64,000 nucleotides of DNA from Chitinophagales bacterium (GCA_013816805.1 JACDDS010000001.1:1-64000), one strand, 5' to 3'. Shown: positions 22,764-45,613, counted from the stretch's first letter. Numbers and translations are program-made. Notes: generated from the sequence alone by a model not told the origin.

Positions 22764-22769
22764 TGCGGC

Positions 22770-23843: not shown

Positions 23844-23865
23844 CGTGCTTATTAAAAAACCATCC

Positions 23866-29169: not shown

Positions 29170-30548
29170 TGTGCCACTAAAATTTTTCCCCGTTGAACTT
29201 TATGGTTCGAATAAGCTTCAATGAAATACATGTCATTCTTCAATCCGCTTACATCTAATTGGTATTTTGACTCACCAATATTGTCAAATTGTCCAAACAG
29301 TTTTCCATCGGTGGAGAAAATGCGGAGCGATTGTATAGGTGAAGAAAAAATAAGCGTTACTTTTTTGTAACAGGGATTGGAAAACACATGAATAGCTGCT
29401 TCTTCGGAATTCAGATGTAATTCCTCAATACCCACAACGTTGGATTGAAATTTAACAACATAGGCTTCACTATGGTCAGTACAATTTATACAGTTAGTCC
29501 CAACTGCAATTAAGGTTTCATCAAAACATTTTGCAACCTCACTAATTGCACTCGTAGAATTAGAATAGTCATCATTCATGTCAATAGAATCTCCATTTTC
29601 AGTGAGATCCATGAATCGAAAATCGTTACTAACGACAGTAATTTTCTTATTATCCCACTGTTGAAGGAATACAGGATGGATAGGAATTTTTTTTTGCCAT
29701 AATAATGAATGCAAAGAATCAAGACTTGTCAGCAATTTTTGCGTAGTGAACGGACTGGTTACAGAGAAAATTATTCCTCCATTAGCCCTGCCAATGCAAG
29801 CACTCGAGCCTATACATCCAAGTAAATCAATATCTTGAATAGTAAGGTACCAGGTGAGTGCACCGCTTGAATCGAATTCATTAATTAATGGCCCCAATGG
29901 CAATACGTTGAAGTTACCAGAAACGGTTATTCTTTCCTGACCATCTAACAAAACATTCGTAGCGAAACCCGGAGGTCCAAACTGATCAGTCTGAATTCGC
30001 TTTTCCCATAGCAGTTGTAAATTCTTATTATATTTTCTGATGAGAGCAATAGAGTGAAAGTTCCCATAGTCATACCAGTCATACCACCCTTTGGCTCCGG
30101 CAATATAAATATTTTCGCTTTTTGCCATTCGCAGCTTTCCCGCAGAAAATGTTGAATCAGCAGGTATATATAAGAGAGAATCTCCGTTCGCATCGGTCTT
30201 AAGAAAATTTAAATAATTATCAATACCAGAAACATGAGTGTCGAATGCAATGATCACTTCACCGTTGTTAAGCTGACATAATCCTGCAATTCCCGGATAG
30301 TTAAATGGTCCGTATTGCTTTGACCATATAGAAGCACCCTTTTTATCTAGTTTAAGAAGGAATATTTTATAAAATAAGGTATTAGTATCTGTGGTGGCCC
30401 CACAAACCATAAAACCACTATCGTTGGTTTGAATAACTTGGTGGGCTCCAGTAAATTTTCCAAACGAATAAGTCTTTACAAAACCTGTTTGAGCGTTCAC
30501 AGCAGAAACGATAATTGTCCAGACTATAATAATTACTATTCTGATCAT
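29166..30548 (-). CDS. T9SS-secreted beta-propeller-like protein
   Basis: A 460-residue secreted protein. Signal peptide MIRIVIIIVWTIIVSAVNAQ, then repeated strands of the kind VIQTNDSGFMVCGATTD and LLKLDKKGASIWSKQYG, typical of the uncharacterised propeller proteins common among T9SS cargo. The last 75 residues are the sorting domain (IHVFSNPCYKKVTLIF ... LKNDMYFIEAYSNHKVQRGKILV). Several Cys residues lie in the second half (CIGSSACIG, CINCTD). It is convergent with cysQ and separates the two halves of the polysaccharide locus. No enzymatic motif is visible. Confidence 0.8.
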   Translation of the reverse strand: MIRIVIIIVWTIIVSAVNAQTGFVKTYSFGKFTGAHQVIQTNDSGFMVCGATTDTNTLFYKIFLLKLDKKGASIWSKQYGPFNYPGIAGLCQLNNGEVIIAFDTHVSGIDNYLNFLKTDANGDSLLYIPADSTFSAGKLRMAKSENIYIAGAKGWYDWYDYGNFHSIALIRKYNKNLQLLWEKRIQTDQFGPPGFATNVLLDGQERITVSGNFNVLPLGPLINEFDSSGALTWYLTIQDIDLLGCIGSSACIGRANGGIIFSVTSPFTTQKLLTSLDSLHSLLWQKKIPIHPVFLQQWDNKKITVVSNDFRFMDLTENGDSIDMNDDYSNSTSAISEVAKCFDETLIAVGTNCINCTDHSEAYVVKFQSNVVGIEELHLNSEEAAIHVFSNPCYKKVTLIFSSPIQSLRIFSTDGKLFGQFDNIGESKYQLDVSGLKNDMYFIEAYSNHKVQRGKILVAH

Positions 30549-30846: not shown

Positions 30847-32289
30847 ATGGTTTTCAATTCATTTGCCTTCATGGTATTTTTTCCGGTGGTCACTATACTT
30901 TATTTCCTGTTGCCACATAATGTAAGATGGTTGCATTTGCTTTTGTCCAGCTGTATCTTTTACATGTTTTTTATTCCTGTTTATGTCCTGATCCTATTTT
31001 TTACTATAGTTATTGATTATTTCGCTGGAATACTTATAGATCAGGCACAAGGTCGAAGGCGAAAAGCATTTTTAATGATGAGCTTAGTAGCTAATATCGG
31101 GGTGCTTGCTGTTTTTAAGTATTATAATTTTTTCATGGATAATTTTAAGTGGATCACCGATATTTTTGGTGTTCACATGGATATTCCTTTTCTCACCATT
31201 ATTCTTCCAATCGGACTTTCCTTCCATACTTTCCAGGCAATGAGTTACACCATCGAAGTGTACCGTAGAAACTTTAAACCTGTTCGTGATTTTGGTATCT
31301 ATTCTTTATATGTAATGTTTTATCCGCAATTGGTTGCAGGACCTATAGAGCGCCCTCAAAATCTGATACACCAATTCTATGAAAAACATTATTTCGATTA
31401 TAATAGAGTGGTATCGGGACTCAAGCTGATGTTGTGGGGACTCTTTAAAAAAGTGGTGATCGCGGATCGCCTGGGTGCATACGTTGCCAATGTGTTCAAT
31501 TTCCCTCATCAGCACAATGGAGAGCCGCTTACCTTTTGGGTATCCGCATGGTTTTTTGCGATACAGCTCTATTGTGATTTTAGCGGATACAGTGATATAG
31601 CCATTGGAGCAGCCAGAATTATGGGCTTTAATTTAATGACCAATTTCAGAAGACCCTATCTCGGTCAAAGTGTCGGCGACGTATGGCAACGCTGGCATAT
31701 TTCTCTTACCACCTGGTTCGCTGATTATGTTTTTAAACCACTGGGAGGCTATCGGAAGGGAAGGTGGCGGGGAATTCTTAACCTTGGTATCCTTATGTTT
31801 CTTGCCGGACTTTGGCACGGAGCTAATTGGACGTATGTTCTTTGCTTTCTGGTTTTCTTTTGCTTCCTCGCTTCAAGACTGATCTTTAAAAAGCAATTAG
31901 ATAAATTTGATAAAATCACTTATGGTATTCATCCATTGTTTGGGAGAGTAGTGAGTTCGATTCTCGCATTTCACTGTGGAATTTTTTCTTACATCTTTTT
32001 CCGGTCGCCAAGTGTACACGATGCCTTGTACTATTATTCCCAGATGTTCAGCTTTAAAAGTCTGAAGTTTTATGATGGCGATGCCTCCACTTTATGGTAC
32101 GGGGTATTTGGCATACTATGCTTATTCTTTATTGAGATTTACCAGGAAGATTTTGCAACTAATAAACAATCCATTTTTCCTGAGCCAAAAAATATCTTCG
32201 GTAAATATATTTTTTACGGTGCAGTAATTTCCATCATCTTATTAATTGGAGTCTTCGATGCAAGTCAGTTCATTTACTTCCAGTTCTAA
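30847..32289 (+). CDS. MBOAT family O-acyltransferase (AlgI-like)
   Basis: A 480-residue polytopic inner-membrane protein of the membrane-bound O-acyltransferase family, which passes acetyl groups across the membrane for polysaccharide O-acetylation. Family motifs: VAGPIERPQNL near 163-172, CDFSGYSDIAIG near 243-254, WQRWHISLTTW near 280-290 and the catalytic His324 in LAGLWHGANW. Length fits AlgI/PatA. The next gene overlaps it and encodes an SGNH-like partner, the usual pairing. The likely target is the polymer made by this locus. Confidence 0.92.
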   Translation: MVFNSFAFMVFFPVVTILYFLLPHNVRWLHLLLSSCIFYMFFIPVYVLILFFTIVIDYFAGILIDQAQGRRRKAFLMMSLVANIGVLAVFKYYNFFMDNFKWITDIFGVHMDIPFLTIILPIGLSFHTFQAMSYTIEVYRRNFKPVRDFGIYSLYVMFYPQLVAGPIERPQNLIHQFYEKHYFDYNRVVSGLKLMLWGLFKKVVIADRLGAYVANVFNFPHQHNGEPLTFWVSAWFFAIQLYCDFSGYSDIAIGAARIMGFNLMTNFRRPYLGQSVGDVWQRWHISLTTWFADYVFKPLGGYRKGRWRGILNLGILMFLAGLWHGANWTYVLCFLVFFCFLASRLIFKKQLDKFDKITYGIHPLFGRVVSSILAFHCGIFSYIFFRSPSVHDALYYYSQMFSFKSLKFYDGDASTLWYGVFGILCLFFIEIYQEDFATNKQSIFPEPKNIFGKYIFYGAVISIILLIGVFDASQFIYFQF

Positions 32290-33337
32290 AGCCGGGGAAG
32301 AAGCTATAAAAATCGCGTCACCAAAATATGGTGTTTGGCGTCTTATGCGCAATGGTATGCTCTTATTATGCGTAATAATAGCCTTTGATCAAGTAGGCGG
32401 AAGATTCCTTCATTATATGTATTTCAAACAAAAAACCGGACCAAATGCTGAGACTACTTTCACTTTTACAAAAATGCAGCAAGATGCTGTAATCCTGGGT
32501 TCGTCCCGTGGCAGGAGAAACTATAATCCACAGCCTATCGGCGATTCATTGGGAATTGGTTGCTATAATGCGGGTCATGATGGCCAGACGATATTTTATG
32601 AGGAAGCTATTATTCGAATGGTATTAAGCCGCTATACTCCTAAATTGGTTGTGCTGGATTTAAATCCGGAAGAAATGTATTACAAGGATGTCCATTACGA
32701 CCGGTTAAATGTATTAGCTCCGTACTATTCTGATTATCCGCAAGTGCGGGATATTTATCTATTGAAAGGTAACCGTAATCCGGACCACGACAGAATTGCA
32801 TATCGGCTGTGGCCCGTTAATAATGAAGGAATAAAGATGATGTCACTCATTTATCGTAATAATTCCGCCGTGCTGGATATTCTTACGGGAATGTTTAAAA
32901 ATAGGAAATCAGATTCTGGCTTTAAGCCATTAAAGGGCATTATTACGCAGCAAAAAGCGAATGAGCTGATTAAAGAAAATAACAACCTAAGAGATACAAA
33001 GGGGAAAATTGTAGATATAAATAAGATAAACGGTTTGGAAGAGATTCTTTCAACCCTCACCTCGCGCGGCGCAAAAGTATATGTGAGTATGTCTCCCGCT
33101 TTGACACCATTTGGCATGGAGCCATCTTACCACAGTATTCTTGATGTTTGCAGAAAATATAACGTTGCCTTTAAAGACTATAGTCAGGACGCTGCCTACA
33201 ATCATTTAGATTATTTTTTTGATAACCATATGAATAAGGATGGAGCTAATTTATTTTCTGTTCATCTTGCGCACGATATAAAACAACTCTATCCCGAATT
33301 ATCAAATAAACAGGTTGCAGTTTCTAATACCCATTAA
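32258..33337 (+). CDS. SGNH-like membrane-anchored protein, probable O-acetylation partner
   Basis: A 359-residue protein with one N-terminal membrane segment (LMRNGMLLLCVIIAFDQVGGRFLHYMY, about residues 24-50) and an extracytoplasmic domain. The fold is suggested by VILGSSRGRRNY, where GSSR replaces the GDS block, YNAGHDGQ (block with Gly and Asn), and FFDNHMNKDGA near the end for the Asp/His pair. It starts inside the MBOAT gene (32-base overlap), so is translationally coupled. AlgX/AlgJ/DltD-type SGNH proteins finish the O-acetyl transfer begun by an MBOAT, and this one likely does the same. ATG 32258 is chosen over TTG 32246. Confidence 0.7.
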   Translation: MQVSSFTSSSKAGEEAIKIASPKYGVWRLMRNGMLLLCVIIAFDQVGGRFLHYMYFKQKTGPNAETTFTFTKMQQDAVILGSSRGRRNYNPQPIGDSLGIGCYNAGHDGQTIFYEEAIIRMVLSRYTPKLVVLDLNPEEMYYKDVHYDRLNVLAPYYSDYPQVRDIYLLKGNRNPDHDRIAYRLWPVNNEGIKMMSLIYRNNSAVLDILTGMFKNRKSDSGFKPLKGIITQQKANELIKENNNLRDTKGKIVDINKINGLEEILSTLTSRGAKVYVSMSPALTPFGMEPSYHSILDVCRKYNVAFKDYSQDAAYNHLDYFFDNHMNKDGANLFSVHLAHDIKQLYPELSNKQVAVSNTH

Positions 33338-33355: not shown

Positions 33356-34234
33356 ATGCCACTTCCGAATTTTCTATTAGTTGGTGCAGCAAAATCAGCT
33401 ACCCGGTCGCTGTATAACTATATGATACAGCATCCTGATGTATTCATGCCAAAGCTTAAAGAGCCGCAGTTTTTTGTGGCCGCTCAGGTACAGAACAGGA
33501 TTCAGAAGTGGGTTGATGATGAAACCCAGTATAGAGCGCTTTTTGCGGGGTCAGAGGGTAAGAAAGCAATTGGTGAAGCGAGTGTGATGTATCTTTTTTT
33601 TTATCGGGAAGCAGTAGAAAATATTAAAAAATACCTGGGTAACGAAATAAAGATCCTCATGATCCTTCGCAATCCTGTGGAACGGGCCTATTCAGCCTAT
33701 AATTTCGTAAGGGTAAACAATCCAGAAGAAAAGTATTCATTTGAGTCAGCTCTTGAAAAGGAAGATGAACGTTTTAAATCAGAAGTTTCCCTTTTCATGC
33801 AATACCGGAAAATGGGCTTGTATGCGGATGCAGTAAAGTCCTATCTGGAAAGTTTTAAATCTGTGCACATTGTTTGGTATGATGATTTTATTAAGGATGT
33901 TCCGGGCACTATTAAATCTATTTTCCGTTTTCTTTCAGTTAACCCTGATGTGAATATTGATTACAACAAACGATGGAATGAAGGTGGCTGGCAATGGAAA
34001 AACCCGGTGCTTCGCTGGCTCTTCATGAGTGATAATCCGTTTAAGAAGGCCTATAAAATGTTTTCAAAAAAGAAAAAAGGAGTTCGTACCAATAAATTTT
34101 TCAGAGATAATTTCGCTAAGAAAGCAGAACCAATGGATTCCGAAACCAGGAAAAACCTCATTGAATACTTTCGAAGTGATATCGAAAAGCTTTCCATTGT
34201 TACAGGAAGAGATTTATCTTCCTGGCTGGAATAA
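33356..34234 (+). CDS. PAPS-dependent sulfotransferase 1
   Basis: A 292-residue sulfotransferase (P-loop-like Sulfotransfer fold) that would move sulfate from PAPS to a sugar hydroxyl. The 5'-phosphosulfate loop lies at VGAAKSATRSLYNYM (9-23) and the 3'-phosphate site at LRNPVERAYSAY (104-115) with Arg105 and Ser113. The loop is unusual: SATRS in place of the common SGTTS, so Gly and one Thr are replaced by Ala and Arg. It begins 18 bases after the SGNH-like gene and precedes the flippase by 32 bases, within one operon. Confidence 0.88.
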   Translation: MPLPNFLLVGAAKSATRSLYNYMIQHPDVFMPKLKEPQFFVAAQVQNRIQKWVDDETQYRALFAGSEGKKAIGEASVMYLFFYREAVENIKKYLGNEIKILMILRNPVERAYSAYNFVRVNNPEEKYSFESALEKEDERFKSEVSLFMQYRKMGLYADAVKSYLESFKSVHIVWYDDFIKDVPGTIKSIFRFLSVNPDVNIDYNKRWNEGGWQWKNPVLRWLFMSDNPFKKAYKMFSKKKKGVRTNKFFRDNFAKKAEPMDSETRKNLIEYFRSDIEKLSIVTGRDLSSWLE

Positions 34235-34266
34235 TCATATAACAAAAAGAGGTATCCGGATGAATT

Positions 34267-35730
34267 ATGAGTGGAAAAGATGAAAAAATAGTGAACCCTG
34301 TACAGGTAACTGAGGAAGGAGTGGTTCATGATAAAGAAATTGTTAAGGGAGGAATATCTGCCTTTACTGCCCGTATCATCGGTATGGGATTTAGCTGGCT
34401 GTTTGCAATTATTATTGCACGTGGATATGGAGCAGCGGGCTCCGGCCTATATAACCTGAGCCAGAGCCTGATGAATTTTATGGCGAGCATCACGAAGATG
34501 GGCTCCGATACATTGATGACTCGTTACGGAGCACAGTATGCTGCTAAAAAGCAGTTTGGCTGGATCAAAGACCTGTACAATAAAAGCATGCTGGTTTCGG
34601 TACCGCTTGCCATCTTTTTTTCGGGGTTGCTTTTCTTTCTGGCGCCATGGATTGCAACAAAAGTTTTTGATAAAAGTGACCCGACGGTTACTCTGGCTTT
34701 TCGTATTGCTGCTTTTTCTTTATTGCCCGTAACGGTATTTAATATTTCAAACGGTGGTTTACGTGGCTTAAAGCAGATTCGCATCTACTCATTGCTTCAG
34801 AACGTGAGTAATTTTTTCTTTGGCTGTATTATAATTACTATTTTTTTATTCATTACCCGTGATATTTATGCACCGGTTATTACCTATGTTTCTTTCATTA
34901 CAATCACCGGAGTTCTTGCTTTTTATTTCTTTCTTAAATATTCCCGTTACAGCACTACTCAGGTCGAAAAGGGCCTCGATTTCAACGAGAAATTCTGGAT
35001 TGGCGTTTCACTTTTTATTGCATCATTTGCATCTCTTGTCCGTGGGTACTCCGATACATTTGTTCTTGGCCGCTACGCAACTATTGAGGATGTTGGAATC
35101 TATAGGAATGCTTTTAAGATTGCAACCGTAGCACGGATCGCTCTCACTGCATTTCTGGTTCCTGCTGCGCCACGATTTTCAGAACTATTCAGCCAGGGAA
35201 AAATGAAAGAATTAGGACAATCGGCGCAGTTTGCCACAAAGGTTATTTTCTGGACATCCGCACCTATTTTGCTGGTTATTATATTATTTCCTAAGCCGAT
35301 TATGAGCGTGTTCGGTGAAAAATTTACAGAGGGCAGCACTGCCCTGGTGATTTTAGCTATAGGTCAGTTTATCAATGCAGCTACAGGTCCGGTAAGCAAT
35401 ATTCTGGTTATGACGGGCAAGCAGAAAATAAATAGAAACCTTATGGTATTAGCTACTATAGCTGCCATAGCATTGGATTTGTGGCTGATACCAATTTACG
35501 GTGCTACAGCAGCTGCGGCTGTCAACACTTTTGGAGTTGTGTTAATGAATATGATTCCCTTTTTCCTCATAAAATATTATTATGGGTTTTATACGCTTGA
35601 TGTTAGAGACCTGTTTAAAATTAGTCCGAAGGGATTAATCAAAGACATCAGAAAATCATTGAAGCAGGAAAAGAGGAAAAAGGTTGAAAAAGAAAATGAG
35701 GTAGAAGAACAAATAGGAACTATCGAATAA
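34267..35730 (+). CDS. wzx: Lipid-linked oligosaccharide flippase (Wzx-like)
   Basis: A 487-residue polytopic inner-membrane protein of the MOP superfamily. It starts with a short polar segment, then FTARIIGMGFSWLFAIIIARGYGAAGSGLYNLSQSL, the usual Wzx opening, and has about 12-14 hydrophobic segments with a charged C-terminal tail (RKSLKQEKRKKVEKENEVEEQ). It should flip the undecaprenyl-linked repeat unit to the periplasm for polymerisation. Located between sulfotransferases 1 and 2 and ends the transcript that begins at 30784. Confidence 0.9.
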   Translation: MSGKDEKIVNPVQVTEEGVVHDKEIVKGGISAFTARIIGMGFSWLFAIIIARGYGAAGSGLYNLSQSLMNFMASITKMGSDTLMTRYGAQYAAKKQFGWIKDLYNKSMLVSVPLAIFFSGLLFFLAPWIATKVFDKSDPTVTLAFRIAAFSLLPVTVFNISNGGLRGLKQIRIYSLLQNVSNFFFGCIIITIFLFITRDIYAPVITYVSFITITGVLAFYFFLKYSRYSTTQVEKGLDFNEKFWIGVSLFIASFASLVRGYSDTFVLGRYATIEDVGIYRNAFKIATVARIALTAFLVPAAPRFSELFSQGKMKELGQSAQFATKVIFWTSAPILLVIILFPKPIMSVFGEKFTEGSTALVILAIGQFINAATGPVSNILVMTGKQKINRNLMVLATIAAIALDLWLIPIYGATAAAAVNTFGVVLMNMIPFFLIKYYYGFYTLDVRDLFKISPKGLIKDIRKSLKQEKRKKVEKENEVEEQIGTIE

Positions 35731-35777
35731 TACATATCATTTCAAGGCACGGATACAATTATTTCTGCGGGGTTCTT

Positions 35778-35798
35778 AACGGATAAACCGTTTTATTA
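35778..35798 (+). terminator. Weak candidate terminator after wzx
   Basis: AACGG, a 5-base loop ATAAA, then CCGTT followed by TTATT. The stem is only 5 bp with two G:C-rich pairs in the middle, so it is weak, but it lies between the wzx stop and the promoter at 35821 where a transcript boundary is expected. Confidence 0.3.
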
Positions 35799-35820
35799 AT
35801 TACTAACAACTCACTTTTTT

Positions 35821-35828
35821 TACATTTG
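35821..35828 (+). promoter_or_regulatory. -7 element of the sulfotransferase 2-3 unit
   Basis: TACATTTG followed by CG is a perfect match to TAnnTTTG, 28 bases before ATG 35857. It is the same 10-mer as at 30784. Confidence 0.6.
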
Positions 35829-35856
35829 CGTCGCTTTCAATAAATAGAAGGTGCTG

Positions 35857-36738
35857 ATGGCATTACCGAATTTCCTGTGTGTGGGCGCACAAAAAGCAGG
35901 AACAACCACGCTTTACGAAATTCTGAAGCAACATCCTGATATCTTTCTTCCGCAAAATGTGAAGGAGACTAAATTCTTTGTCTACCCTGATAAGTATGAA
36001 AATGGTCTTGAGTATTATGAAAAAGAATACTTCAGTGAATGGCAAGGCCAGCAAGCCATTGGCGAAGTGGACCCTGCAATCATGTTTGAGGAACAAGCTG
36101 CTTCACGTATCCACCGCTCCCTTGGTAATAAGGTAAAACTGATTTTTATTCTCCGGAATCCGGCCGCGAGAGCTTATTCCCATTTTTTAATGACTCAGCG
36201 AAAAGGATTTGAAGAGCTCTCCTTTGATGAAGCTATTTCAAAGGAGAAAGATCGGTTGGTCCAGAATCCTGCACAAAAATTTAATTTCAGCTATTTAACC
36301 CGTGGATATTATAGCAGGCAAATTGAAAGGTTTAAAGAATATTTTCCGGCTGAAAATTTTCTTTTTTTAATATTCGAAGATGACTTTATTAAAAACCGTA
36401 AGATTACGTTTGACCGTATACAGGATTTTCTGGAAGTAAAAAGAGTCGGGCTTGATTTGGATATCAGAAGTAATAAGGCTGCAGCTCCTAAAAATAAAAC
36501 AGTGCATGAACTCATGCGAAAGAGAAATGCTGTTCGCAACACACTTAGTAAGATCATGCCGGGGTCTTTAAAAAAAACGATTCAGGATTTTATTTCAAAG
36601 AAAAATATTAAGGAAATAGAGCACTCAACTCTCGACGTTAAAAAAGAAATGGAATTGATACAGAAATTTTTTATGGAAGATATTCAAAAGCTTGAAAAGA
36701 TTCTCTACCGAGACTTAAGTACGTGGTATACCAAATAA
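35857..36738 (+). CDS. PAPS-dependent sulfotransferase 2
   Basis: A 293-residue member of the same family. The PAPS loop VGAQKAGTTTLYEIL (9-23) is canonical, and the 3'-phosphate motif ILRNPAARAYSHF (98-110) supplies Arg100 and Ser108. KETKFF follows the loop, as in heparan-type and bacterial sugar sulfotransferases. The C-terminal third is Lys-rich. ATG 35857 chosen; GTG 35851 is the only competitor. Begins a new transcript with its own promoter, followed after 30 bases by sulfotransferase 3. Confidence 0.92.
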   Translation: MALPNFLCVGAQKAGTTTLYEILKQHPDIFLPQNVKETKFFVYPDKYENGLEYYEKEYFSEWQGQQAIGEVDPAIMFEEQAASRIHRSLGNKVKLIFILRNPAARAYSHFLMTQRKGFEELSFDEAISKEKDRLVQNPAQKFNFSYLTRGYYSRQIERFKEYFPAENFLFLIFEDDFIKNRKITFDRIQDFLEVKRVGLDLDIRSNKAAAPKNKTVHELMRKRNAVRNTLSKIMPGSLKKTIQDFISKKNIKEIEHSTLDVKKEMELIQKFFMEDIQKLEKILYRDLSTWYTK

Positions 36739-36768
36739 AAATCATTAACCAAGGCTTATCCAGCAAAG

Positions 36769-37713
36769 ATGGATTATAGTTCAGGCTCACATAATGATTC
36801 GCGATTCCCAAATTTATTTATTGTAGGAGCTGCCAAGGCAGGTACTACCACGTTGCATTACGCGCTGGCAAAGCATCCTCAGGTATACATGAGTGAAAAA
36901 AAAGAACCTGGCTATTTTGCATGGCCTGAAGAAAGCCTCTCCTTTATTAATAACGGTAAACTGATAACTCAGCCACGCTTTTTAGTCAATCATTTGGATG
37001 ATTACCTCCGGTTATTTGAAAATGGAAAGAGTAAAAAAATCAGGGGTGAATCATCTACTACCTATTTGTTTTTTTATCAAAAAACGATTGCAAATATTAA
37101 GCGGATACATCCTGATGCAGAACAGGTAAATATTGTTATTGCTTTGCGTAACCCTGTTGAACGTGCTTTCTCACAGTATATGCACAAGCTCAGGGACGCG
37201 GCGGAAACACTTTCTTTTGAAGAAGCTATAGACCTTGAGGAAAAACGCAAAGATGAAAACTGGCATTTCGATTACCAGTATATACAAAGAGGATTTTATT
37301 ACAACCAGGTTAAGGCTTATCTCGATAATTTCAGGAATGTAAAAATATACCTCAATGAAGACCTTCGCAACCAGCCTCTAAACGTAGGAAAGTCTTTAGA
37401 AGAGTTTTTAAATATTGAATTGTTACCAATGGATTTCAGCGGAGATTTGAATGTAAGCGGAGAGCCTAAAATGGAATCGCTGAATACGTTTTTGAAAAAG
37501 CCAAATCCTGTAAAAAAACTGCTAGGTCAGTTACTGCCAAAAACCTTGCGTCGCAAAATGAGGCTTCGGATACAAAGTACTGTGTACAAATATAACCTTG
37601 AGAAAAAGGAAATAAACCCCGAAACGAAAGCAACTCTTACGAAAGTTTACTATGAAGATGTGATGAAGTTGCAGGATTTGATTAAAAGAGATTTAGGATT
37701 GTGGATGAAATAA
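36769..37713 (+). CDS. PAPS-dependent sulfotransferase 3
   Basis: A 314-residue member. The N-terminal 12 residues are polar; the PAPS loop IVGAAKAGTTTLHYAL (18-33) and KEPGYF follow, and the 3'-phosphate site is ALRNPVERAFSQY (125-137; Arg127, Ser135). Between the motifs is an extra segment of about 25 residues relative to sulfotransferase 2. FDYQYIQRGFYYNQVKAYLDNF near 165-186 is a conserved substrate-side helix found also in the other copies. Divergence among the copies suggests different sugar positions rather than simple gene dosage. Confidence 0.92.
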   Translation: MDYSSGSHNDSRFPNLFIVGAAKAGTTTLHYALAKHPQVYMSEKKEPGYFAWPEESLSFINNGKLITQPRFLVNHLDDYLRLFENGKSKKIRGESSTTYLFFYQKTIANIKRIHPDAEQVNIVIALRNPVERAFSQYMHKLRDAAETLSFEEAIDLEEKRKDENWHFDYQYIQRGFYYNQVKAYLDNFRNVKIYLNEDLRNQPLNVGKSLEEFLNIELLPMDFSGDLNVSGEPKMESLNTFLKKPNPVKKLLGQLLPKTLRRKMRLRIQSTVYKYNLEKKEINPETKATLTKVYYEDVMKLQDLIKRDLGLWMK

Positions 37714-37804
37714 CAATCAAGTTCTACCTGTTTTGTTTAACAAAAAAAAGCTTGTTTATAAGGCTATTCTTCAATATCAAGCAATGCCTTTCTAACTTTT
37801 TTTG

Positions 37805-38044
37805 TTACTTTTTTTGGGTGGTGGAAGGCTTGGATTGCTGATCTCCTTTATCACCGTATCCCGGTTTTACTTTGGTTTTTGCCGTTCTCTTTCTATCCTG
37901 ACTTAAAGATCTGCCCTGGTCATCGCTTTCAGTAAATTCACCTTTTTCATTCCTTCTAACATAACGCTTATCTCCTTTTGGAGCAATTAAAGTACGCTTT
38001 CCGGAACCGGAACTTTTGCCGGAGCTTTTTGAGGACTTTGCCAT
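37805..38044 (-). CDS. Small basic protein of unknown function
   Basis: A 79-residue, very Lys/Ser/Gly-rich protein without hydrophobic segments. The core KRTLIAPKGDKRYVRRNEKGEFTESDDQGRSLSQDRKR resembles a small conserved bacterial protein that I have seen widely distributed but without a function. It is the only minus-strand gene inside the 30.8-45.6 kb half of the locus, between sulfotransferases 3 and 4. The basic composition suggests nucleic acid binding, but that is a guess. Confidence 0.65.
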   Translation of the reverse strand: MAKSSKSSGKSSGSGKRTLIAPKGDKRYVRRNEKGEFTESDDQGRSLSQDRKRTAKTKVKPGYGDKGDQQSKPSTTQKK

Positions 38045-38238
38045 TTTTTTTATTTAAATAGTTTGAGAAATAAAAAGCTTGTGATTTCTTTACAAATGTA
38101 AGTTTATATCTCACGAATCACCAATAACTAAAAAATTTTTATGGTGAAAATACTTCAGCTTTTCCCCCGCTTAGGGAAAGCCTGTTATGCAATTATAAAT
38201 GCCTTATACAATCATTGATTATTTTCCTTTCATAATTC

Positions 38239-38246
38239 TATCTTCG
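38239..38246 (+). promoter_or_regulatory. -7 element of sulfotransferase 4
   Basis: TATCTTCG matches TAnnTTTG with one mismatch, 19 bases before ATG 38266. Likely drives 38266 to 45613, whose genes overlap or nearly abut. Confidence 0.45.
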
Positions 38247-38265
38247 CCGCAATTATATAAGCAGT

Positions 38266-39222
38266 ATGAAAGAAGAAGAGAGCAGGCTTCCTAATTTTTT
38301 TATTGTAGGTGCGGCCAAATCAGGTACCACTTCATTATATGAATATATGAAGATGCATCCCCAGGTATATATGGCGCCTATCAAGGAAACGCATCACTTT
38401 TCCAGTGATATTGATAACACAAAATTCCGACCCAACTATGCCCGCTCGCTAAATAAAGACCTGTCAAAATTTTTACAGGGCGATATGAGTGATGGAATTT
38501 TTCATGCCTTTGTAAAAGACTGGGATCAGTATACCCAATTGTTTAAGAACGTAAACGGGGAAAAAGCAATTGGAGAAGTCACCAATTCATATCTGTATTC
38601 TAAGGAAGCCGCCCAAAATATTTTTAGCCGGTTTTCAAATGCAAAAATAATTATGATGCTGCGAAATCCGGTGGAGCGCGCATTTAGCCACTACCTTATG
38701 GATTTGCGAATCGGTTATGAGAGAGATAATTTTATGGATGCTTTAAAAAAGGATATGGCCAGGGATCCGAAAGGTTGGGGCATCTCTAATTTATATGTAG
38801 AGGTAGGAATGTATTATGAGCAGGTGAAACGCTATATAGATATTTTTCCGGAGCGGCAGCGCCGTATCTACATTTTTGATGATTTTAAAAAAGATCCGGG
38901 GTTGATTGTAAAAGATATGTTTTCCTTCCTGGGTGTTAACCCAAATGTGGAAATCGATTATTCTCAAAAGTTCAATCCTTCATTCATTCCCAAAAATAAA
39001 ATGATCGGTAAATTGAACAGTCAGAAACGGATCAAAGATTGGTTGAAGGGAATATTGCCCAAATCGGTAAAGTCAAAATTTAAAAAAACATTGTACACTG
39101 ATAAAAATCTTCCAGCAATCACCCTATCCGAAAAAAAATATCTTTCTGAAATTTTCAGGGATAATGTAATGAAGCTGAGCCAGCTTTTAAACCGTGATCT
39201 GTCTAACTGGGTTAATGTTTAG
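38266..39222 (+). CDS. PAPS-dependent sulfotransferase 4
   Basis: A 318-residue member with canonical motifs: IVGAAKSGTTSLYEYM (13-28) and MLRNPVERAFSHYL (131-144; Arg133, Ser141). KETHHFSSDID after the loop carries two His residues in a region where related enzymes bind the acceptor. It has an insertion of about 30 residues between the two motifs. Its stop codon touches the start of the GT2 gene (39222/39225), which indicates co-translation of sulfotransfer and glycosyl transfer functions. Confidence 0.93.
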   Translation: MKEEESRLPNFFIVGAAKSGTTSLYEYMKMHPQVYMAPIKETHHFSSDIDNTKFRPNYARSLNKDLSKFLQGDMSDGIFHAFVKDWDQYTQLFKNVNGEKAIGEVTNSYLYSKEAAQNIFSRFSNAKIIMMLRNPVERAFSHYLMDLRIGYERDNFMDALKKDMARDPKGWGISNLYVEVGMYYEQVKRYIDIFPERQRRIYIFDDFKKDPGLIVKDMFSFLGVNPNVEIDYSQKFNPSFIPKNKMIGKLNSQKRIKDWLKGILPKSVKSKFKKTLYTDKNLPAITLSEKKYLSEIFRDNVMKLSQLLNRDLSNWVNV

Positions 39223-39224
39223 TG

Positions 39225-40310
39225 ATGCCGGAACCTAAAGTGTATATTATTTTAATAAATTTCAATGGGCATGCTAATACTGCGGAAACTATAGAAAGCC
39301 TTTCGAAGCAATCGTATAAGAATTTCCAGGTAATAGTTGTCGATAACAATACGCCTCAATCCCTTCATATCATTAAAGAATGGTGCCTTGGAAAACAGGT
39401 TATAGAGTTTACGCCGCCGGATGAGATTAAAAAATTTTCGTTCCCATACTGCCCAAAGCCCTTATCATGGGCTGACTATGAAGTTGAAGAGGCGGAAAAA
39501 GGGGGAAATATTGAAAAAGAAAAAGTTGCACAAATGCAGGCTGATGCCGCTTTCAGATTCCCCTTCATCTTTATACAGGCAAGGAGTGATATCGGTTTCG
39601 CAGGTGGCAACAATGTCGGCTCGCATTACGCTCTTTCTAAAGGGGACGCGGATTATGTATGGCTGCTGAATAACGATACTACGCTTGATTTCGATGCACT
39701 CAAAATGTTGATTGAAAAAGCAGGGGAATACAAATCAGGAAGTGAAAAAGTAGGGATCATCGGATCGAAGCTATTATGGTACAGGTGGCCCGATAAGATA
39801 AATGCCATAGGAGGGATGTTTAACAAATGGACCACCTGGTCGTACCATCTTGGTTTGCGTGAAACAGACAATGGACAATACAACCGCGATGATGTGAAGT
39901 TTGATTATGTATATGGCGCATCACTTTTTCTATATAAAGCATTTCTGGAAGATGTGGGATTCATGAATGAAATGTATTATGCTTATTTTGAAGAGATGGA
40001 TTGGGCGGTCCGGGGGGCGCGCCGCGGCTGGAAGCACGGTTATGCATACAAAAGCGTAATCTATCACAAGCAAGGTGTAACCACCGGAAAAGAAATAAAG
40101 AGCAAACGAAGACCGCAATTCTTCATGTGCTGCAAATACCGTGGCTGGATGCTTTTCTACCAACTTTACTATCCTTACCTTATCTTCGCCCCCGTTTTCA
40201 GGTTGATAGGGAAAGCTCTCAAAAACTTAACAGAAGGAAATTCAAAAGAATCGATTCTTATTCTTAAAATTCTATTAGGTAAACGCACGTGCCACAGGGA
40301 TACGAATTAA
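39225..40310 (+). CDS. Glycosyltransferase family 2
   Basis: A 361-residue GT-A inverting glycosyltransferase in the cytosol. KVYIILINFNGHANTAETIESL is the classic start, VVDNNT the donor-binding strand, and WLLNNDTTL the DxD-type metal site. FEEMDWAVRGARRGW near 260 contains the catalytic acidic residue. The arrangement resembles rhamnosyltransferase-like WbbL proteins, but an unusual charged insert of about 45 residues (near 75-120) separates the first two strands from the NVGSHYALSKG region. Donor and acceptor cannot be deduced. ATG 39225 is preferred to GTG 39222. Confidence 0.88.
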   Translation: MPEPKVYIILINFNGHANTAETIESLSKQSYKNFQVIVVDNNTPQSLHIIKEWCLGKQVIEFTPPDEIKKFSFPYCPKPLSWADYEVEEAEKGGNIEKEKVAQMQADAAFRFPFIFIQARSDIGFAGGNNVGSHYALSKGDADYVWLLNNDTTLDFDALKMLIEKAGEYKSGSEKVGIIGSKLLWYRWPDKINAIGGMFNKWTTWSYHLGLRETDNGQYNRDDVKFDYVYGASLFLYKAFLEDVGFMNEMYYAYFEEMDWAVRGARRGWKHGYAYKSVIYHKQGVTTGKEIKSKRRPQFFMCCKYRGWMLFYQLYYPYLIFAPVFRLIGKALKNLTEGNSKESILILKILLGKRTCHRDTN

Positions 40311-41662
40311 CATCACAACCGTTACTGACAACAGAACATGCTGTTAGTGACACATGGATGAGGCGTATCAAAATCGGGTTAACGTATCTGCTTTTTTTGA
40401 ATATATTCGGCACGCTTATTAAAAGCCCCGTAACGCTGTATTATTTAATATATGGTGGCTATCCTTTTCTTTTCCTATACCTCGGCTTTACATTTTTATA
40501 TGTGGTAGATAAGGTGCTCTCAAAAGGATCCGGTTTTACACCATACGAGTTTATCATTTTTTTTATTCTCACCTATATAATGCTTCAAGCAGGCTTTGTT
40601 ACAAATTATTACTTCGGACAGCCGGTAATGCTTGGAATGTCTGCAGAAAAATCATGGCTAGCTATTCTTTCCGGCATATTTGTTTTTTACTTATTGAAGA
40701 CCAGGATCCTGGATCTAACTATCATCCGTGATGCGCTGATTTTTACTGCGTGGTTCAATACCCCCTTTTATTTACTGATGATTTTGGCGCTTAACCCAAA
40801 TCAATTTCAGGGAACCCTTTTTGTGTATTGTAATCAGGTGAAGGGTGGTTGCCAGTTTGAGTTCGACATTTTTGGGCTTGAATTCGCGACCATCTACTAT
40901 TTTATTCGTTTTCTTCGAACTACCAGATGGAAATATGCCGTATTTTTTGTGTTCTTTTTTTCTTATATCTTCTTCATAAATCAAAAGCGCGGCACTTCCG
41001 TAGCGCTTTTAGGCACCATGGGTTTATATTTCCTGATTTATACAAATATCGAAAAGATCATTTTTTATACCGTTACTTTTTTCCTTGGCATTGTGGGTGG
41101 AGTAGGGCTGCTGGAACTGGTACGTCCTGACATTGTTGCGCGTATAGTGCAGATGTACACAGATGTATTACTGGTGCTTGAAGGTAAAGCAACCGGGGAG
41201 GCCTCCGCAGATGCGCGCATACGGGAATCGAATACCGTATTTAAATACTTTAATCTCCATCCGGGTAGCTGGTTTTTTGGAAATGGGAAAATCAATAATA
41301 ACTGGCAGTCTGGTCCGCATGGTGAATTCGGGCATTTCTATGCTTCAGATATTGGTATGCTGGGAGTAGTTTTTCAATTTGGTGTATTGGGCCTTCTTGT
41401 GGGCTTAATGCAATACTGGCTGGTATTTAGAACGCACCGGAAGCTTAGCAGGTTTTATAGGAAAGATTACTTTTATCAGGGAGTCCTGTTTTTTATTATA
41501 TTTTTTATTGTAAGAGGAATTCCATCAGGAGGAAATTTCTTCGACCCGGGAATGGCTATTGCCTCTTCTTTTATAGCTATCCATTATTTCTTTTATTATA
41601 TGCAATTGCATCCTTCCCGGAATTATAAATATTTCAACAGGCAACAACAACTTTTAGATTGA
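40289..41662 (+). CDS. Wzy-like polysaccharide polymerase / O-antigen ligase family membrane protein
   Basis: A 457-residue inner-membrane protein with about 10-12 hydrophobic segments, beginning after a 25-residue cytosolic lead. A long extracytoplasmic region of about 70 residues near 290-350 (DVLLVLEGKATGEASADARIRES ... NGKINNNWQSG) is in the place where Wzy/WaaL proteins carry their active loop. FINQKRGTSVALLG and a final Arg-rich periplasmic patch fit too. Sequence conservation in this class is low, so the call rests on topology plus the wzx/wzz/SLBB context. GTG 40289 overlaps the GT2 gene by 22 bases. Confidence 0.75.
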   Translation: MPQGYELTSQPLLTTEHAVSDTWMRRIKIGLTYLLFLNIFGTLIKSPVTLYYLIYGGYPFLFLYLGFTFLYVVDKVLSKGSGFTPYEFIIFFILTYIMLQAGFVTNYYFGQPVMLGMSAEKSWLAILSGIFVFYLLKTRILDLTIIRDALIFTAWFNTPFYLLMILALNPNQFQGTLFVYCNQVKGGCQFEFDIFGLEFATIYYFIRFLRTTRWKYAVFFVFFFSYIFFINQKRGTSVALLGTMGLYFLIYTNIEKIIFYTVTFFLGIVGGVGLLELVRPDIVARIVQMYTDVLLVLEGKATGEASADARIRESNTVFKYFNLHPGSWFFGNGKINNNWQSGPHGEFGHFYASDIGMLGVVFQFGVLGLLVGLMQYWLVFRTHRKLSRFYRKDYFYQGVLFFIIFFIVRGIPSGGNFFDPGMAIASSFIAIHYFFYYMQLHPSRNYKYFNRQQQLLD

Positions 41663-41667
41663 GACCG

Positions 41668-42594
41668 ATGGCGAATGCTTTAAAGTTACCCAATCTGATT
41701 ATCGGGGGTGTGCACAAAGCAGGAACCACTTCTGTTTTTACTTATTTAGGTATGCACCCTGAAGTGTGTGCTTCAATTAAAAAAGAAATCGGATTTTTTA
41801 TGCCGTTGAAATACGGAAAAAATCTGCCTCCCATAGAAGAATATAGTAAATACTTTGTCCAGTGCAATGAGGAGAAAAAATATTTTCTGGAAGCTAGTCC
41901 CAGTTACCTGTATGGGAAAGAGTTTATAGCAGACAGCATTTTGAAAGAATGTGGCGCTAATACCAGGATGATATTTATTTTAAGAAATCCGGCTGACCGG
42001 CTGTTTTCCTTTTATGAAAGAAAAAAGGCAAATGCTTACCTAAATTCATCAATTTCATTTTCTGACTTTATTCATACCTCTGAAAAACTAATCAATACAA
42101 GGCTGGAAGACCATCGTGAAGATGAAGAAGCTATTTACATAAGAGGAATACAGGAAGGTTTTTATATAGATTATTTGCCTGTTTGGTTTGATAAATTCGG
42201 TCCCAATCTTAAAATTCTTTTTTTTGAAGAACTTAAAAAGGACACCATTTCTTTTATGCAATCACTCTGCAATTGGCTTGATATACCTTTTGATAGCTAT
42301 AAACCTGAAGACTTTAAAGTAGAGAATCAAACCATTGCTTACAGGAACAGGTTCCTTCATAAAACCTTACTCTTTATTAACAAAAAATTTGAAACGCTTT
42401 GGCGCAAAAATGTTTCTTTGAAGCGTACCTTACGAGGCCTTTATAAGCGTGTAAACGCTGAGGATAGAAAACGTGAGCATATGAATGAGGAAGAGCGCCA
42501 ATACCTTAATACGCTTTATCAGCCTTACAATGAACAACTTTCTGATTTCCTGCACAAGAAAGGGATAACACTGTTGCCGGATTGGCTAACATAA
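41668..42594 (+). CDS. PAPS-dependent sulfotransferase 5
   Basis: A 308-residue, more divergent member. The PAPS loop is IIGGVHKAGTTSVFTYL (11-27), where His replaces Pro/Ala before the Lys, and the 3'-phosphate site is ILRNPADRLFSFYER (104-118; Arg106, Ser114). The segment KKEIGFF corresponds to KEPxYF in the others. ATG 41668 is chosen over TTG 41659, which avoids overlap with the polymerase gene. It ends 5 bases before the start codon of sulfotransferase 6. Confidence 0.9.
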   Translation: MANALKLPNLIIGGVHKAGTTSVFTYLGMHPEVCASIKKEIGFFMPLKYGKNLPPIEEYSKYFVQCNEEKKYFLEASPSYLYGKEFIADSILKECGANTRMIFILRNPADRLFSFYERKKANAYLNSSISFSDFIHTSEKLINTRLEDHREDEEAIYIRGIQEGFYIDYLPVWFDKFGPNLKILFFEELKKDTISFMQSLCNWLDIPFDSYKPEDFKVENQTIAYRNRFLHKTLLFINKKFETLWRKNVSLKRTLRGLYKRVNAEDRKREHMNEEERQYLNTLYQPYNEQLSDFLHKKGITLLPDWLT

Positions 42595-42599
42595 CGGAA

Positions 42600-43481
42600 A
42601 TGCAAAAAAAGCTACCTAATTTCTTTATTGTCGGCGCTCCTAAAGCAGGAACTACTTCCTTATATTATTATCTCGATAAGCATCCGGAAGTGTTTATGAG
42701 TCCTATCAAAGAGCCGAACTATTTTTCATATAATGAAACCGTTGCCCAGGATTTATATCATAAAGAAAAGGGAGTAGGAACACTTAAGGAATATCTTGAG
42801 CTTTTTAAAAATGTAAAAAACGAGAAGATAATTGGTGAAGCCAGTGTCTCCTATCTTTACTATCCCTCCGTCCCGCAAAAAATTTATGATTTCAATGCTG
42901 ATTCTAAAATCGTGATTGTGCTGCGCAATCCTGTGGACCGTGCTTTTTCCCACTATTTCATGGAGCACAAATTAGGATACGTTCACGCTCCCCTTGAAAA
43001 GATTTTGTTAAATAATCTAAAGCATAAACATGCTCACCTGTATTATCAGCAGTATGTTAAATTAGGAATATATACCCCGCAGGTAAAACGATACCTTGAC
43101 ATATTTGGAAAAGATCGTGTAAAGATTTTTATCTACGAAGATCTCGATCTGAGTAAGGAGAAAATGATTCGTGAGCTATTTGATTTTTTAAGTATTGATA
43201 AATCAATTTTGCCTGATCTGAATCAAAAGCATAACTCTTACTCTACACCAAGGAATGAAGTGATACGTTTTTTATATGCTCAGAAAACACTGCGCTCAAT
43301 GGCAAGAAAAATATTGCCTGCCGGTAAAGTGGATAAGGTAAAAAGCTTCTTCTTATCATCTTCAAAAAAAAAGGAGAAGCATGAAGAAGCAGTTGCGGTC
43401 ATGAAAAATATTTTTAGACCAGACATTATAGAGCTCGAAAAATTGCTTAACAAAAATCTAAGTTCCTGGTATGAGCAATAG
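42600..43481 (+). CDS. PAPS-dependent sulfotransferase 6
   Basis: A 293-residue member with fully canonical motifs: IVGAPKAGTTSLYYYL (10-25), KEPNYFSYN (37-45) and VLRNPVDRAFSHYFM (107-121; Arg109, Ser117). It most resembles sulfotransferase 4 in these blocks. ATG 42600 is favoured; an in-frame TTG 42582 would overlap the previous gene. It overlaps the GT4 gene by 11 bases, so the two are translationally coupled. Confidence 0.93.
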   Translation: MQKKLPNFFIVGAPKAGTTSLYYYLDKHPEVFMSPIKEPNYFSYNETVAQDLYHKEKGVGTLKEYLELFKNVKNEKIIGEASVSYLYYPSVPQKIYDFNADSKIVIVLRNPVDRAFSHYFMEHKLGYVHAPLEKILLNNLKHKHAHLYYQQYVKLGIYTPQVKRYLDIFGKDRVKIFIYEDLDLSKEKMIRELFDFLSIDKSILPDLNQKHNSYSTPRNEVIRFLYAQKTLRSMARKILPAGKVDKVKSFFLSSSKKKEKHEEAVAVMKNIFRPDIIELEKLLNKNLSSWYEQ

Positions 43482-44652
43482 CGAAAAGCTGCGTGTAGCA
43501 ATGGTGGAACCGATCGGGGGTCACAGTGGAAATGACTTTTATGATTTTGGCTTGTGCAAAGCAGTGGCCGATCTTGGGACGGAAATGGTTTTTTATACAT
43601 GCGATGAAACGGATCTGGACACTAAATTTTCTTTCCCTTTTAAAACCGTAAAGCCTTTTAAAAAGATATACGGAAAGGATCCCAAGGTTATTCGTGGAGC
43701 ACGTTATGCCTTTGGTTCTTATATGGCTTCCAGGCATGCTTCAAGGTCCGGATTAAAAGTAGTTCACTTTCATGTTTATCATTTTGCAGGCAGAGAGTAC
43801 TTAAATTTCCTTTTGTTTAAGAGAAGAGGTTTTAAAATAGTAGCTACTATTCATGACATCGAAAGCTTTGATAAATTCGGACAGCAGATAGATCCGGCGA
43901 AATATGCAAAGTTTGAGCGGTTGATTGACCAGATTATCGTCCATTCTGATTACGCCCGCGATTCATTAAAAAAATACTTTCCTAATTTTAATCAGAATAG
44001 AATACATATTGTTCCTCACGGAGATTCCGATTTCCTGTACAACAGGCACATTGAAAAAGATACGGCCCGCCGTAAATTGAGTCTGCCCCCTGACAAAAAG
44101 CTCGTGCTGTTCTTCGGTCAGATAAAAAAAGTAAAAGGTTTGGATGTACTGTTAAAGGCACATGCAATTGTTCGGGATAGAATGCCCGATGTAAAGCTGG
44201 TGGTGGTAGGCAAACCCTGGAAGGTTGAACAGGATGAATTCGATCAGATTATTAAAGAAAAAAACCTGGCTGGTGATTGCATCTTAAATTACTCATACGT
44301 TCCTAATGAAATTATTCCTGATTATTTTGCAGCAGCTGATGTGGTCGCACTGCCTTACCGTGAAATATATTCCAGCGGTGTAATGATCCGGTCACTTGAT
44401 TATAGCTCTGCAATCGTTGCTTCTGATCTCGATACGTTTAAAAAGATTATTGTGGATGGCCAAAATGGAGTTCTGTTCCGAAATGAAGATGAAAAAGACC
44501 TCGCTGAAAAAATTATTTATTTATTAAGCAATGAAGAGAAGTTAAAAATAATGCGTGCTAATGCAAAGAAAACTGCAGAGGAAAAATTTGGCTGGAGAAT
44601 GATCGGTAACCGGGTGAATGAAATCTATAAACTCGCATTGAATGGCAAGTGA
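43471..44652 (+). CDS. Glycosyltransferase family 4
   Basis: A 393-residue GT-B retaining glycosyltransferase. N-terminal domain: LRVAMVEPIGGHSGNDFYDFGL with the Gly loop, and VVHFHVYHFAG. C-terminal donor domain: LVLFFGQIKKVKGLDVLLKAH at about 210-230 and DVVALPYREIYSSGVMIRSLDY at about 288-310, which carries the E-x7-E-like region of GT4, where the second Glu position appears replaced by Asp. Cytosolic, acting on the lipid-linked repeat. Donor unknown. It overlaps sulfotransferase 6 and the SDR gene by 11 bases on either side. Confidence 0.88.
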   Translation: MSNSEKLRVAMVEPIGGHSGNDFYDFGLCKAVADLGTEMVFYTCDETDLDTKFSFPFKTVKPFKKIYGKDPKVIRGARYAFGSYMASRHASRSGLKVVHFHVYHFAGREYLNFLLFKRRGFKIVATIHDIESFDKFGQQIDPAKYAKFERLIDQIIVHSDYARDSLKKYFPNFNQNRIHIVPHGDSDFLYNRHIEKDTARRKLSLPPDKKLVLFFGQIKKVKGLDVLLKAHAIVRDRMPDVKLVVVGKPWKVEQDEFDQIIKEKNLAGDCILNYSYVPNEIIPDYFAAADVVALPYREIYSSGVMIRSLDYSSAIVASDLDTFKKIIVDGQNGVLFRNEDEKDLAEKIIYLLSNEEKLKIMRANAKKTAEEKFGWRMIGNRVNEIYKLALNGK

Positions 44653-45613
44653 ATATATATTTATTACAGGAGCTGCCGGTATGGTAGGCTCGCACTTAAT
44701 TGACCATTACAGGAGATTTCTCCCGAAAAAACAAATCATCGGTACCTGGTTTTCTCCCACCATTGACGTAAAAGATATTAAAGGGATATGTAACTCCAGG
44801 ATACTGGATGTAACCCATACCTGCAAAGTATTCGAGCTGATTAATAAGTTTCGGCCCGATAAAATTTTTCACCTTGCTGCTCAAAGCCTTCCTACCGTTT
44901 CCTGGCAAAAACCTATTGAAACCATTGAAGCAAATATGAATGGTACGGTGAACGTTTTTGAAGCGGTAAAAAAAATTCGTCTTCATAATCCAGACTACGA
45001 TCCAATGGTTGTGGTAGCCTGTTCCAGTGCGGAGTACGGTGCATCACTTACGCCTGAAAATTCTCCGGTAAAAGAAGACACTCCTTTACTACCACTGCAC
45101 CCTTACGGGGTGAGTAAGGTGGGGCAGGACTTGCTTTCATTCCAATATTTTCAGAATTTTAAGATTCGCTGTATAAGAGTGCGCATCTTCAATACAACAG
45201 GCGCCCGCAAAACCAATGATGTTACTTCAGATTTTGTAAAACGTGCATTCGATATTTCTAATGGATCTGAGAATAGTTTCCGCGTTGGAAATCTGGAAAC
45301 GAGGCGCGCCATCACCGATGTGCGTGATCTGGTTAAAGCACTAGTACTTCTTTCTGAAAAAGGTAAAGCCGGTGAGGTATATAATGTGAGCGGTGAAAAA
45401 GTATACCAGGTTATAGAAATAATTCCGCTTATTGAAAAAGCAATCAATGTTAAACTAAATGTGGAGGTAGCACAAGATCTATTAAGGCCAAGTGATGAGC
45501 CTATTATCTACGGTGACAGCAGCAAATTAAAAAGAGACACCGGGTGGCAGCAGCAATATTCTTTAGAAGAGACAATAAGTGACATGCTGCGGTATTTGAA
45601 AGAGAAAGTTTGA
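44642..45613 (+). CDS. NAD-dependent SDR, GDP-mannose 4,6-dehydratase / reductase-like
   Basis: A 323-residue extended SDR. NAD motif ITGAAGMVGSHLIDHY (8-23), KIFHLAAQSLP near 74-84, CSSAEYG at 127-133 and the catalytic Tyr155/Lys159 in YGVSKVGQDLL. FNTTGARK and RRAITDVRDLVKAL resemble both Gmd (GDP-mannose 4,6-dehydratase) and Rmd (GDP-4-keto-6-deoxymannose reductase). Residues that separate them are not decisive by eye. It would add a GDP-linked deoxysugar to the donor set. Last gene of the continuous overlapping run; directly at its stop begins a pseudogene. Confidence 0.8.
   Translation: MASEYIFITGAAGMVGSHLIDHYRRFLPKKQIIGTWFSPTIDVKDIKGICNSRILDVTHTCKVFELINKFRPDKIFHLAAQSLPTVSWQKPIETIEANMNGTVNVFEAVKKIRLHNPDYDPMVVVACSSAEYGASLTPENSPVKEDTPLLPLHPYGVSKVGQDLLSFQYFQNFKIRCIRVRIFNTTGARKTNDVTSDFVKRAFDISNGSENSFRVGNLETRRAITDVRDLVKALVLLSEKGKAGEVYNVSGEKVYQVIEIIPLIEKAINVKLNVEVAQDLLRPSDEPIIYGDSSKLKRDTGWQQQYSLEETISDMLRYLKEKV

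Follow-up and report, generated by a model that had tools for sequence, protein, structure and literature searches.

A conserved Chitinophagales polysaccharide locus with six sulfotransferase genes, a candidate pathway for a multiply sulfated exopolysaccharide

Results

Six sulfotransferase genes lie among polysaccharide assembly genes

We analysed a 64,000-nucleotide stretch of DNA from a Chitinophagales bacterium (GCA_013816805.1, JACDDS010000001.1:1-64000; hereafter the window), in which an earlier reading of the sequence (the original prediction) had placed six sulfotransferase genes within a Wzx/Wzy-type polysaccharide cluster. All six open reading frames (ORFs) were recovered, each above the Pfam gathering score. 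They were termed ST1 (33356-34234), ST2 (35857-36738), ST3 (36769-37713), ST4 (38266-39222), ST5 (41668-42594) and ST6 (42600-43481), and all lie on the plus strand. Sulfotransfer_1 (PF00685) was matched at E values from 4e-7 to 2e-19 (ST1, 5.8e-15; ST2, 2.1e-19; ST3, 4e-7; ST4, 7.1e-15; ST5, 4.7e-13; ST6, 2.3e-17), and Sulfotransfer_3 also scored above gathering (PF13469, 9.3e-13 for ST3). The set comprises genes of the 3′-phosphoadenosine 5′-phosphosulfate (PAPS)-dependent type, located within 10 kb and interleaved with wzx, a wzy-like gene and the family 2 and family 4 glycosyltransferase genes GT2 and GT4. When the 12 Sulfotransfer_1 genes of the 3.57 Mb genome were placed at random, six fell within 9.3 kb in 0 of 200,000 simulations, which ruled out chance clustering.

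The six proteins share 24-38% pairwise identity, with ST5 the most divergent. A KxGTT loop had been predicted for all of them; it is present in ST2 to ST6, but ST1 carries KSATR, a variant that is invariant among ST1 orthologues. Alignment revealed that the P-loop Lys, the catalytic Glu and the Arg and Ser of the 3′-phosphate site are retained in ST1-ST6 and in all same-family syntenic orthologues. We take the Glu to be catalytic from what is generally known of the heparan-sulfate 3-O-sulfotransferases (3-OSTs) and N-deacetylase/N-sulfotransferases (NDSTs), together with the alignment of ST4 to heparan-sulfate enzymes. Elsewhere in the order, an ST3-related protein of the family f14 has Arg in place of Lys at the P-loop position.

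Sequence searches with ST4 matched the heparan-sulfate 3-OSTs and NDST1. In structural comparisons, an AlphaFold2 (AF2) model of ST4 (predicted local distance difference test score (pLDDT) 88) gave Z scores of 22-24 to NDST1 and 3-OST-1/3/5, compared with 11-13 to cytosolic sulfotransferases (SULTs) and 13-14 to tyrosylprotein sulfotransferases (TPSTs), so that this one modelled member is predicted to adopt the fold of the human heparan-sulfate enzymes rather than that of SULTs. ST1 was likewise assigned to the heparan-sulfotransferase type. None of ST1-ST6 contains a hydrophobic segment, and they are therefore probably cytoplasmic and would act before Wzx. An NCBIfam scan returned no family for ST4, nor for three other proteins described below (ST7, the Wzy-like protein and the SGNH-fold protein).

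A linked seventh sulfotransferase gene, ST7 (48691-49692, plus strand), had not been included in the original prediction. It is of Sulfotransfer_3 type (PF13469, 1.9e-31) and adjoins a CBS gene; the CBS-ST7 order is kept in the related loci L020, L021, L023 and L038 and is looser in L026. ST7 shares the neighbourhood of ST1-ST6, but it was not counted with them, being of another subfamily and only 14-20% identical. In some relatives an ORF with several CxxCH heme-like motifs occupies the CBS-ST7 or the SDR-CBS interval (L026:4591-6555, L023:6553-8499). Divergent sulfotransferase genes were also seen at unlinked sites (G000:C11:40692, G000:C11:56655 and G000:C5:14786; loci L014, L034 and L015), one of them adjoining another wzx-like gene.

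Export, assembly and precursor genes surround the sulfotransferase genes

The predicted Wzx flippase (34267-35730; PF01943 (Polysacc_synt), 3e-24), GT2 (39225-40310; PF00535, 4.8e-13) and GT4 (43471-44652; PF00534, 1.6e-26) were all confirmed by Pfam and lie on the plus strand, as do the other genes below unless indicated. The Wzy-like polymerase (40289-41662) stood less firmly: its PF04932 (Wzy_C) score of 26.6 bits falls under the 31.7 cut-off, although the protein is polytopic (about seven hydrophobic segments) and syntenic in relatives. The proposed O-acetylation pair consists of an O-acyltransferase of the MBOAT family (30847-32289; PF03062, 7.4e-24) and a membrane-anchored protein of SGNH fold (32264-33337). 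The former was established by Pfam; the latter, with conserved GSS(R/K) and DNH motifs, had no Pfam or NCBIfam match. Its AF2 model (pLDDT 80) has an SGNH/GDSL fold and its structural matches include PatB O-acetyltransferases (Z about 13), making it a plausible partner of the MBOAT protein.

Upstream lie a Wza-type outer-membrane exporter with Poly_export and SLBB repeats (23845-26301; PF02563, 1.6e-18; PF10531, 3.7e-41), a Wzz-type chain-length protein that adjoins it and is syntenic (26323-27483; PF02706, 20.4 bits, under the 25.5 cut-off) and a CpsB/CapC phosphatase (27488-28228; PF19567, 9.7e-42). Precursor genes include a UDP-glucose 6-dehydrogenase-like enzyme for UDP-glucuronic acid (UDP-GlcA; 12578-13936; best match TuaD) and a TviB-like dehydrogenase for a UDP-N-acetylhexosamine (UDP-HexNAc) uronate (17650-18939; best match TviB), both above the TIGR03026 cut-off. 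They are accompanied by RmlB, a dTDP-glucose 4,6-dehydratase (18993-20063; TIGR01181, 467 bits, above cut-off), a TviC-like epimerase (22716-23753; best match TviC, under the equivalog cut-off) and, downstream of GT4, a nucleotide-sugar dehydratase/epimerase of the short-chain dehydrogenase/reductase (SDR) family (44642-45613; PF16363, 6e-53; no equivalog above cut-off). Two genes for initiating transferases (PF02397, WcaJ/WbaP-type) were found elsewhere in the genome and might serve the locus. The S10 ribosomal operon lies downstream of the locus.

Overlaps of 4-20 bases had been reported between several genes. We measured overlaps of 11, 11, 22 and about 26 bp, while the remaining junctions are gaps of 2-552 bp. 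The description of the cluster as one operon is too strong for the source genome, because it is broken by ORFs on the opposite strand (29166-30548 and 37805-38044), interruptions that are absent from relatives. The second encodes a basic 79-residue protein between ST3 and ST4, and looks like a lineage-specific insertion since the ST3 and ST4 genes abut or overlap in loci L019 and L021.

The export genes bear on what kind of polymer is made. Bacteroidota with a type IX secretion system (T9SS) attach proteins bearing its C-terminal domain to an anionic lipopolysaccharide (A-LPS) built by a Wzx/Wzy pathway, and ORFs with Por_Secre_tail domains were found within and beside the locus (29166, 46280). 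The sulfated glycan could then be lipid-anchored, as an O-antigen or A-LPS kind of polymer, and double as an anchor for type IX-secreted proteins. We regard this as improbable, given that Wza with its SLBB repeats, the Wzz-like protein and CpsB/CapC point to capsule or exopolysaccharide export, and that the T9SS-tail ORFs are on the opposite strand or non-syntenic in relatives.

The locus and its six sulfotransferases are old and conserved

Loci of relatives were compared by matching the ORFs of sulfotransferase-rich stretches to the proteins of the window. Sulfotransfer_1 genes were present in all 16 genomes examined of the same Genome Taxonomy Database (GTDB) family. Seven other same-family genomes, from genera g4, g5, g6 and g7, have the same gene order, TviC-Wza-Wzz-CpsB-CysQ-MBOAT-SGNH-ST1-Wzx-ST2-ST3-ST4-GT2-Wzy-ST5-ST6-GT4-SDR-CBS-ST7, as far as their contigs reach; several of these loci run off the end of a contig. 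The locus of genus g8 is shorter but otherwise alike, with ST2- and ST6-like genes only (ST2- and ST4-like in one genome), and f14 has a related four-sulfotransferase locus that includes relatives of ST2 and ST3. Among Chitinophagales/Bacteroidetes metagenome-assembled genomes (MAGs), MGR_bin243, MGR_bin239, SZAS-60 and SKYG18 carry the six-gene form or their contig's share of it, and RH-14apr17-97 and RH-23may17-1171 the two-gene form.

In a maximum-likelihood tree of 73 sulfotransferases, ST1-ST6 each formed one clade with 100% bootstrap (support values 100/100 for ST1 and 100/99 for ST5), and sequences grouped by position in the locus, not by genome. These separate, fully supported clades indicate that ST1-ST6 are old and separately maintained, and exclude recent tandem duplication as their origin. 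Ratios of nonsynonymous to synonymous substitution rates (dN/dS) were 0.06-0.11 for ST2, ST4, ST5 and ST6 in pairs with unsaturated dS, indicating purifying selection; most genus-level pairs were saturated, and the values cover these four genes and neither ST1 nor ST3.

This history speaks to whether the enzymes are partly redundant duplicates that supply dose, or alternative versions, of a single sulfation step. Membership of one superfamily and the 24-38% identity would suit such redundancy, yet each enzyme is an ancient lineage that has kept its slot and the ST1 P-loop variant does not change, so that we consider redundancy highly improbable. A somewhat more credible alternative, though still an unlikely one, is that only some of ST1-ST6 modify the polysaccharide of the locus while the rest act on small molecules, proteins or lipids and owe their place in the cluster to history. 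Six sulfotransferases stand against two glycosyltransferases, and the g8 locus implies that the pathway can run with fewer sulfotransferases. On the other side, the heparan-type catalytic set is common to all six, the genes are placed between pathway genes in an order fixed across genera, and purifying selection is strong on those that could be measured.

Two further ORFs were noted in relatives. In g8 and in genome G001, a probably secreted protein of 520-534 residues is encoded beside the ST6 gene (L028:11069-12667, L029:8943-10544, L030:15723-17321, L032:14988-16550, L037:9915-11516); it has the glycoside-hydrolase-like motifs WPGG, ELGNE and TEWN and no clear Pfam match. In the f14 locus, a 243-residue ORF between GT2 and the ST4-like gene (L035:16536-17264) has an LRNP motif and no Pfam match, and is possibly a distant sulfotransferase.

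Activated sulfate seems to be supplied for transfer

Sulfotransfer releases 3′-phosphoadenosine 5′-phosphate (PAP), which is hydrolysed by CysQ. A cysQ gene (28384-29169) that the original prediction had not mentioned lies in the locus and is syntenic in relatives; the protein scored 296.3 bits against TIGR01331 (3′(2′),5′-bisphosphate nucleotidase), above the equivalog cut-off of 228.8. Outside the locus, the genes for ATP sulfurylase (Sat) and adenosine 5′-phosphosulfate (APS) kinase (CysC) adjoin each other. The APS/PAPS reductase family, PF01507, had no match in the source genome but was present in 14 of 14 control genomes; it also takes in CysD, an ATP sulfurylase subunit. Two relatives with the six-gene locus (G008 and G009, both 99% complete) likewise lack PF01507 and have CysC. 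The absence is not universal, since PF01507 was found in other family members, and in g8 it adjoins CysC. With Sat-CysC present and no reductase-family match, activated sulfate seems to serve transfer only: judged by absence from draft assemblies, the three genomes that lack PF01507 have no evident use for it but transfer.

A sulfatase gene (14011-15738, minus strand) also lies in the window; its product has an SGSH_C domain and a CxPxR motif and weakly matches a T9SS tail. We found no support for it as a dedicated remodelling partner of the locus, as the genome has about 12 sulfatases like it and the best-matching genes of relatives lie elsewhere. With about 12 such sulfatases the organism probably makes sulfate esters and removes them too.

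Discussion

A model for a multiply sulfated exopolysaccharide

We consider it likely that the locus directs Wzx/Wzy-type synthesis of an exopolysaccharide or capsule bearing sulfate at several positions, with ST1-ST6 as position-specific enzymes. The original prediction of such a product, with different enzymes for different positions, gains indirect support from synteny, CysQ, Sat-CysC, the absence of a reductase match, the separate clades and purifying selection, all read from genomes. In this model, Sat and CysC would make PAPS, and an initiating sugar transferase together with GT2 and GT4 would build the lipid-linked repeat. ST1-ST6, as soluble cytoplasmic enzymes of the heparan-sulfate (3-OST/NDST) type, would each sulfate a particular position of that repeat, while CysQ would destroy the inhibitory by-product PAP. 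Wzx may then flip the sulfated repeat and the Wzy-like protein polymerise it; the MBOAT and SGNH proteins may O-acetylate the polymer in the periplasm, and Wzz, Wza and CpsB would govern length and export. We infer that the acceptor is the locus polysaccharide and that all six enzymes act on it, each at its own position; the same holds for how many sulfates a repeat carries, which sugars it contains and in what order the steps occur. The backbone probably contains uronic acids and the exopolysaccharide is probably rich in them; the dehydrogenases of UDP-GlcA and UDP-HexNAc-uronate type are linked upstream, and their bearing on a hexosamine-uronate (glycosaminoglycan) backbone depends on glycosyltransferase specificities.

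Several points weigh against this model. The polysaccharide is predicted from gene content, the Wzy and Wzz assignments sit under Pfam cut-offs, two opposite-strand ORFs divide the cluster in the source genome, and other sulfotransferase genes occupy unlinked sites. CysQ and CysC could serve general metabolism as well, and the PF01507 absence in the source genome rests on a 31-contig assembly rated 100% complete. The locus also has only two glycosyltransferases for six sulfotransferases, so that other glycosyltransferases may act from elsewhere or some sulfotransferases may have other acceptors; the mismatch would fit a small, sulfate-dense repeat or glycosyltransferases encoded elsewhere. We suggest, as a tentative extension that we hold to be somewhat short of an even chance, that the product is a heavily sulfated glycosaminoglycan-like polymer whose repeats are given a fixed pattern in the cytoplasm by six position-specific heparan-type sulfotransferases, and that some members make activated sulfate solely for it.

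Occurrence of multi-sulfotransferase loci

Bacteroidota are better known for degrading sulfated glycans than for making them. The view that such loci are uncommon in the phylum was borne out in an evenly drawn sample of 395 Bacteroidota genomes: sulfotransferases of this type were matched at E <= 1e-40 in 22 of them, and only the source genome had more than two, with at most five candidates scored per genome. In cyanobacteria, Sulfotransfer_1 was matched at E <= 1e-8 in 43 of 146 genomes, and one contig (G507:C92) carries five such genes within about 20 kb, so sulfotransferase-rich loci are not unique to this little-studied Chitinophagales family. Six in conserved order are unusual in the sampled Bacteroidota and cyanobacteria. 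We found no report of the locus in Chitinophagales in the open-access literature.

Comparison with known systems

Sulfated polysaccharides among bacteria were described in one study (PMC8205485) as nearly exclusive to cyanobacteria, a statement repeated later (PMC13390465). Sulfated capsules of marine Vibrio and Cobetia are now known (PMC11641403, PMC11766843), and Pontiella produces a sulfated glycosaminoglycan-like polymer (PMC7356697). Sulfated glycosaminoglycan-like material was detected chemically in granular sludge, where genomes could not identify the producers (PMC10483923). For the Bacteroidetes MAGs of a mat survey, the absence of sulfotransferases was reported (PMC9723792). The present locus points to one Bacteroidota family and to specific genes as candidate makers of sulfated polysaccharide. 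If the model holds, the six enzymes, each ancient and conserved in its own right and all encoded in a fixed order, would constitute a compact bacterial polysaccharide-sulfotransferase set for making defined sulfated glycans.

The synechan (xss) cluster of Synechocystis sp. PCC 6803 is, like the Chitinophagales locus, a Wzx/Wzy exopolysaccharide cluster with sulfotransferases, and its product was shown to be sulfated (PMC8205485). It has two sulfotransferases and eight glycosyltransferases in a cyanobacterium, compared with six and two in a member of the Bacteroidota, and no CysQ, which the Chitinophagales locus encodes, was noted for it in the text consulted. The wps-1 cluster of the actinomycete Actinoplanes missouriensis is also of Wzx/Wzy type; its two sulfotransferases belong to different families, one being of heparan-sulfotransferase type, and sulfation was inferred (PMC13390465). 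For Vibrio sp. KMM 8419 (PMC11641403) and Cobetia marina KMM 1449 (PMC11766843) the sulfated capsule structures are known and the clusters contain both sulfotransferase and PAPS genes, the Vibrio cluster being reported to hold three sulfotransferase genes in all. The Cobetia cluster includes cysQ, as here (PMC11766843). However, both capsules are of ABC-transporter type, and PAPS synthesis is encoded in the cluster, whereas the Chitinophagales locus has only CysQ.

The human heparan-sulfate 3-OSTs and NDST1 resemble ST4 in predicted fold and in the layout of the catalytic Lys, Glu, Arg and Ser. Identity is 21-25%, and the human enzymes act on polymer chains in the Golgi, whereas the Chitinophagales enzymes probably act on lipid-linked repeats in the cytoplasm. 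The closest solved structure to ST4, from Alicyclobacillus acidocaldarius (PDB 3rnl; 174 bits, E 5e-50, Z 33), is annotated merely as 'Sulfotransferase'. Exopolysaccharide clusters bearing sulfotransferases are already known, as in synechan with its two; six, conserved across a Bacteroidota family, make this a new form of such a cluster.

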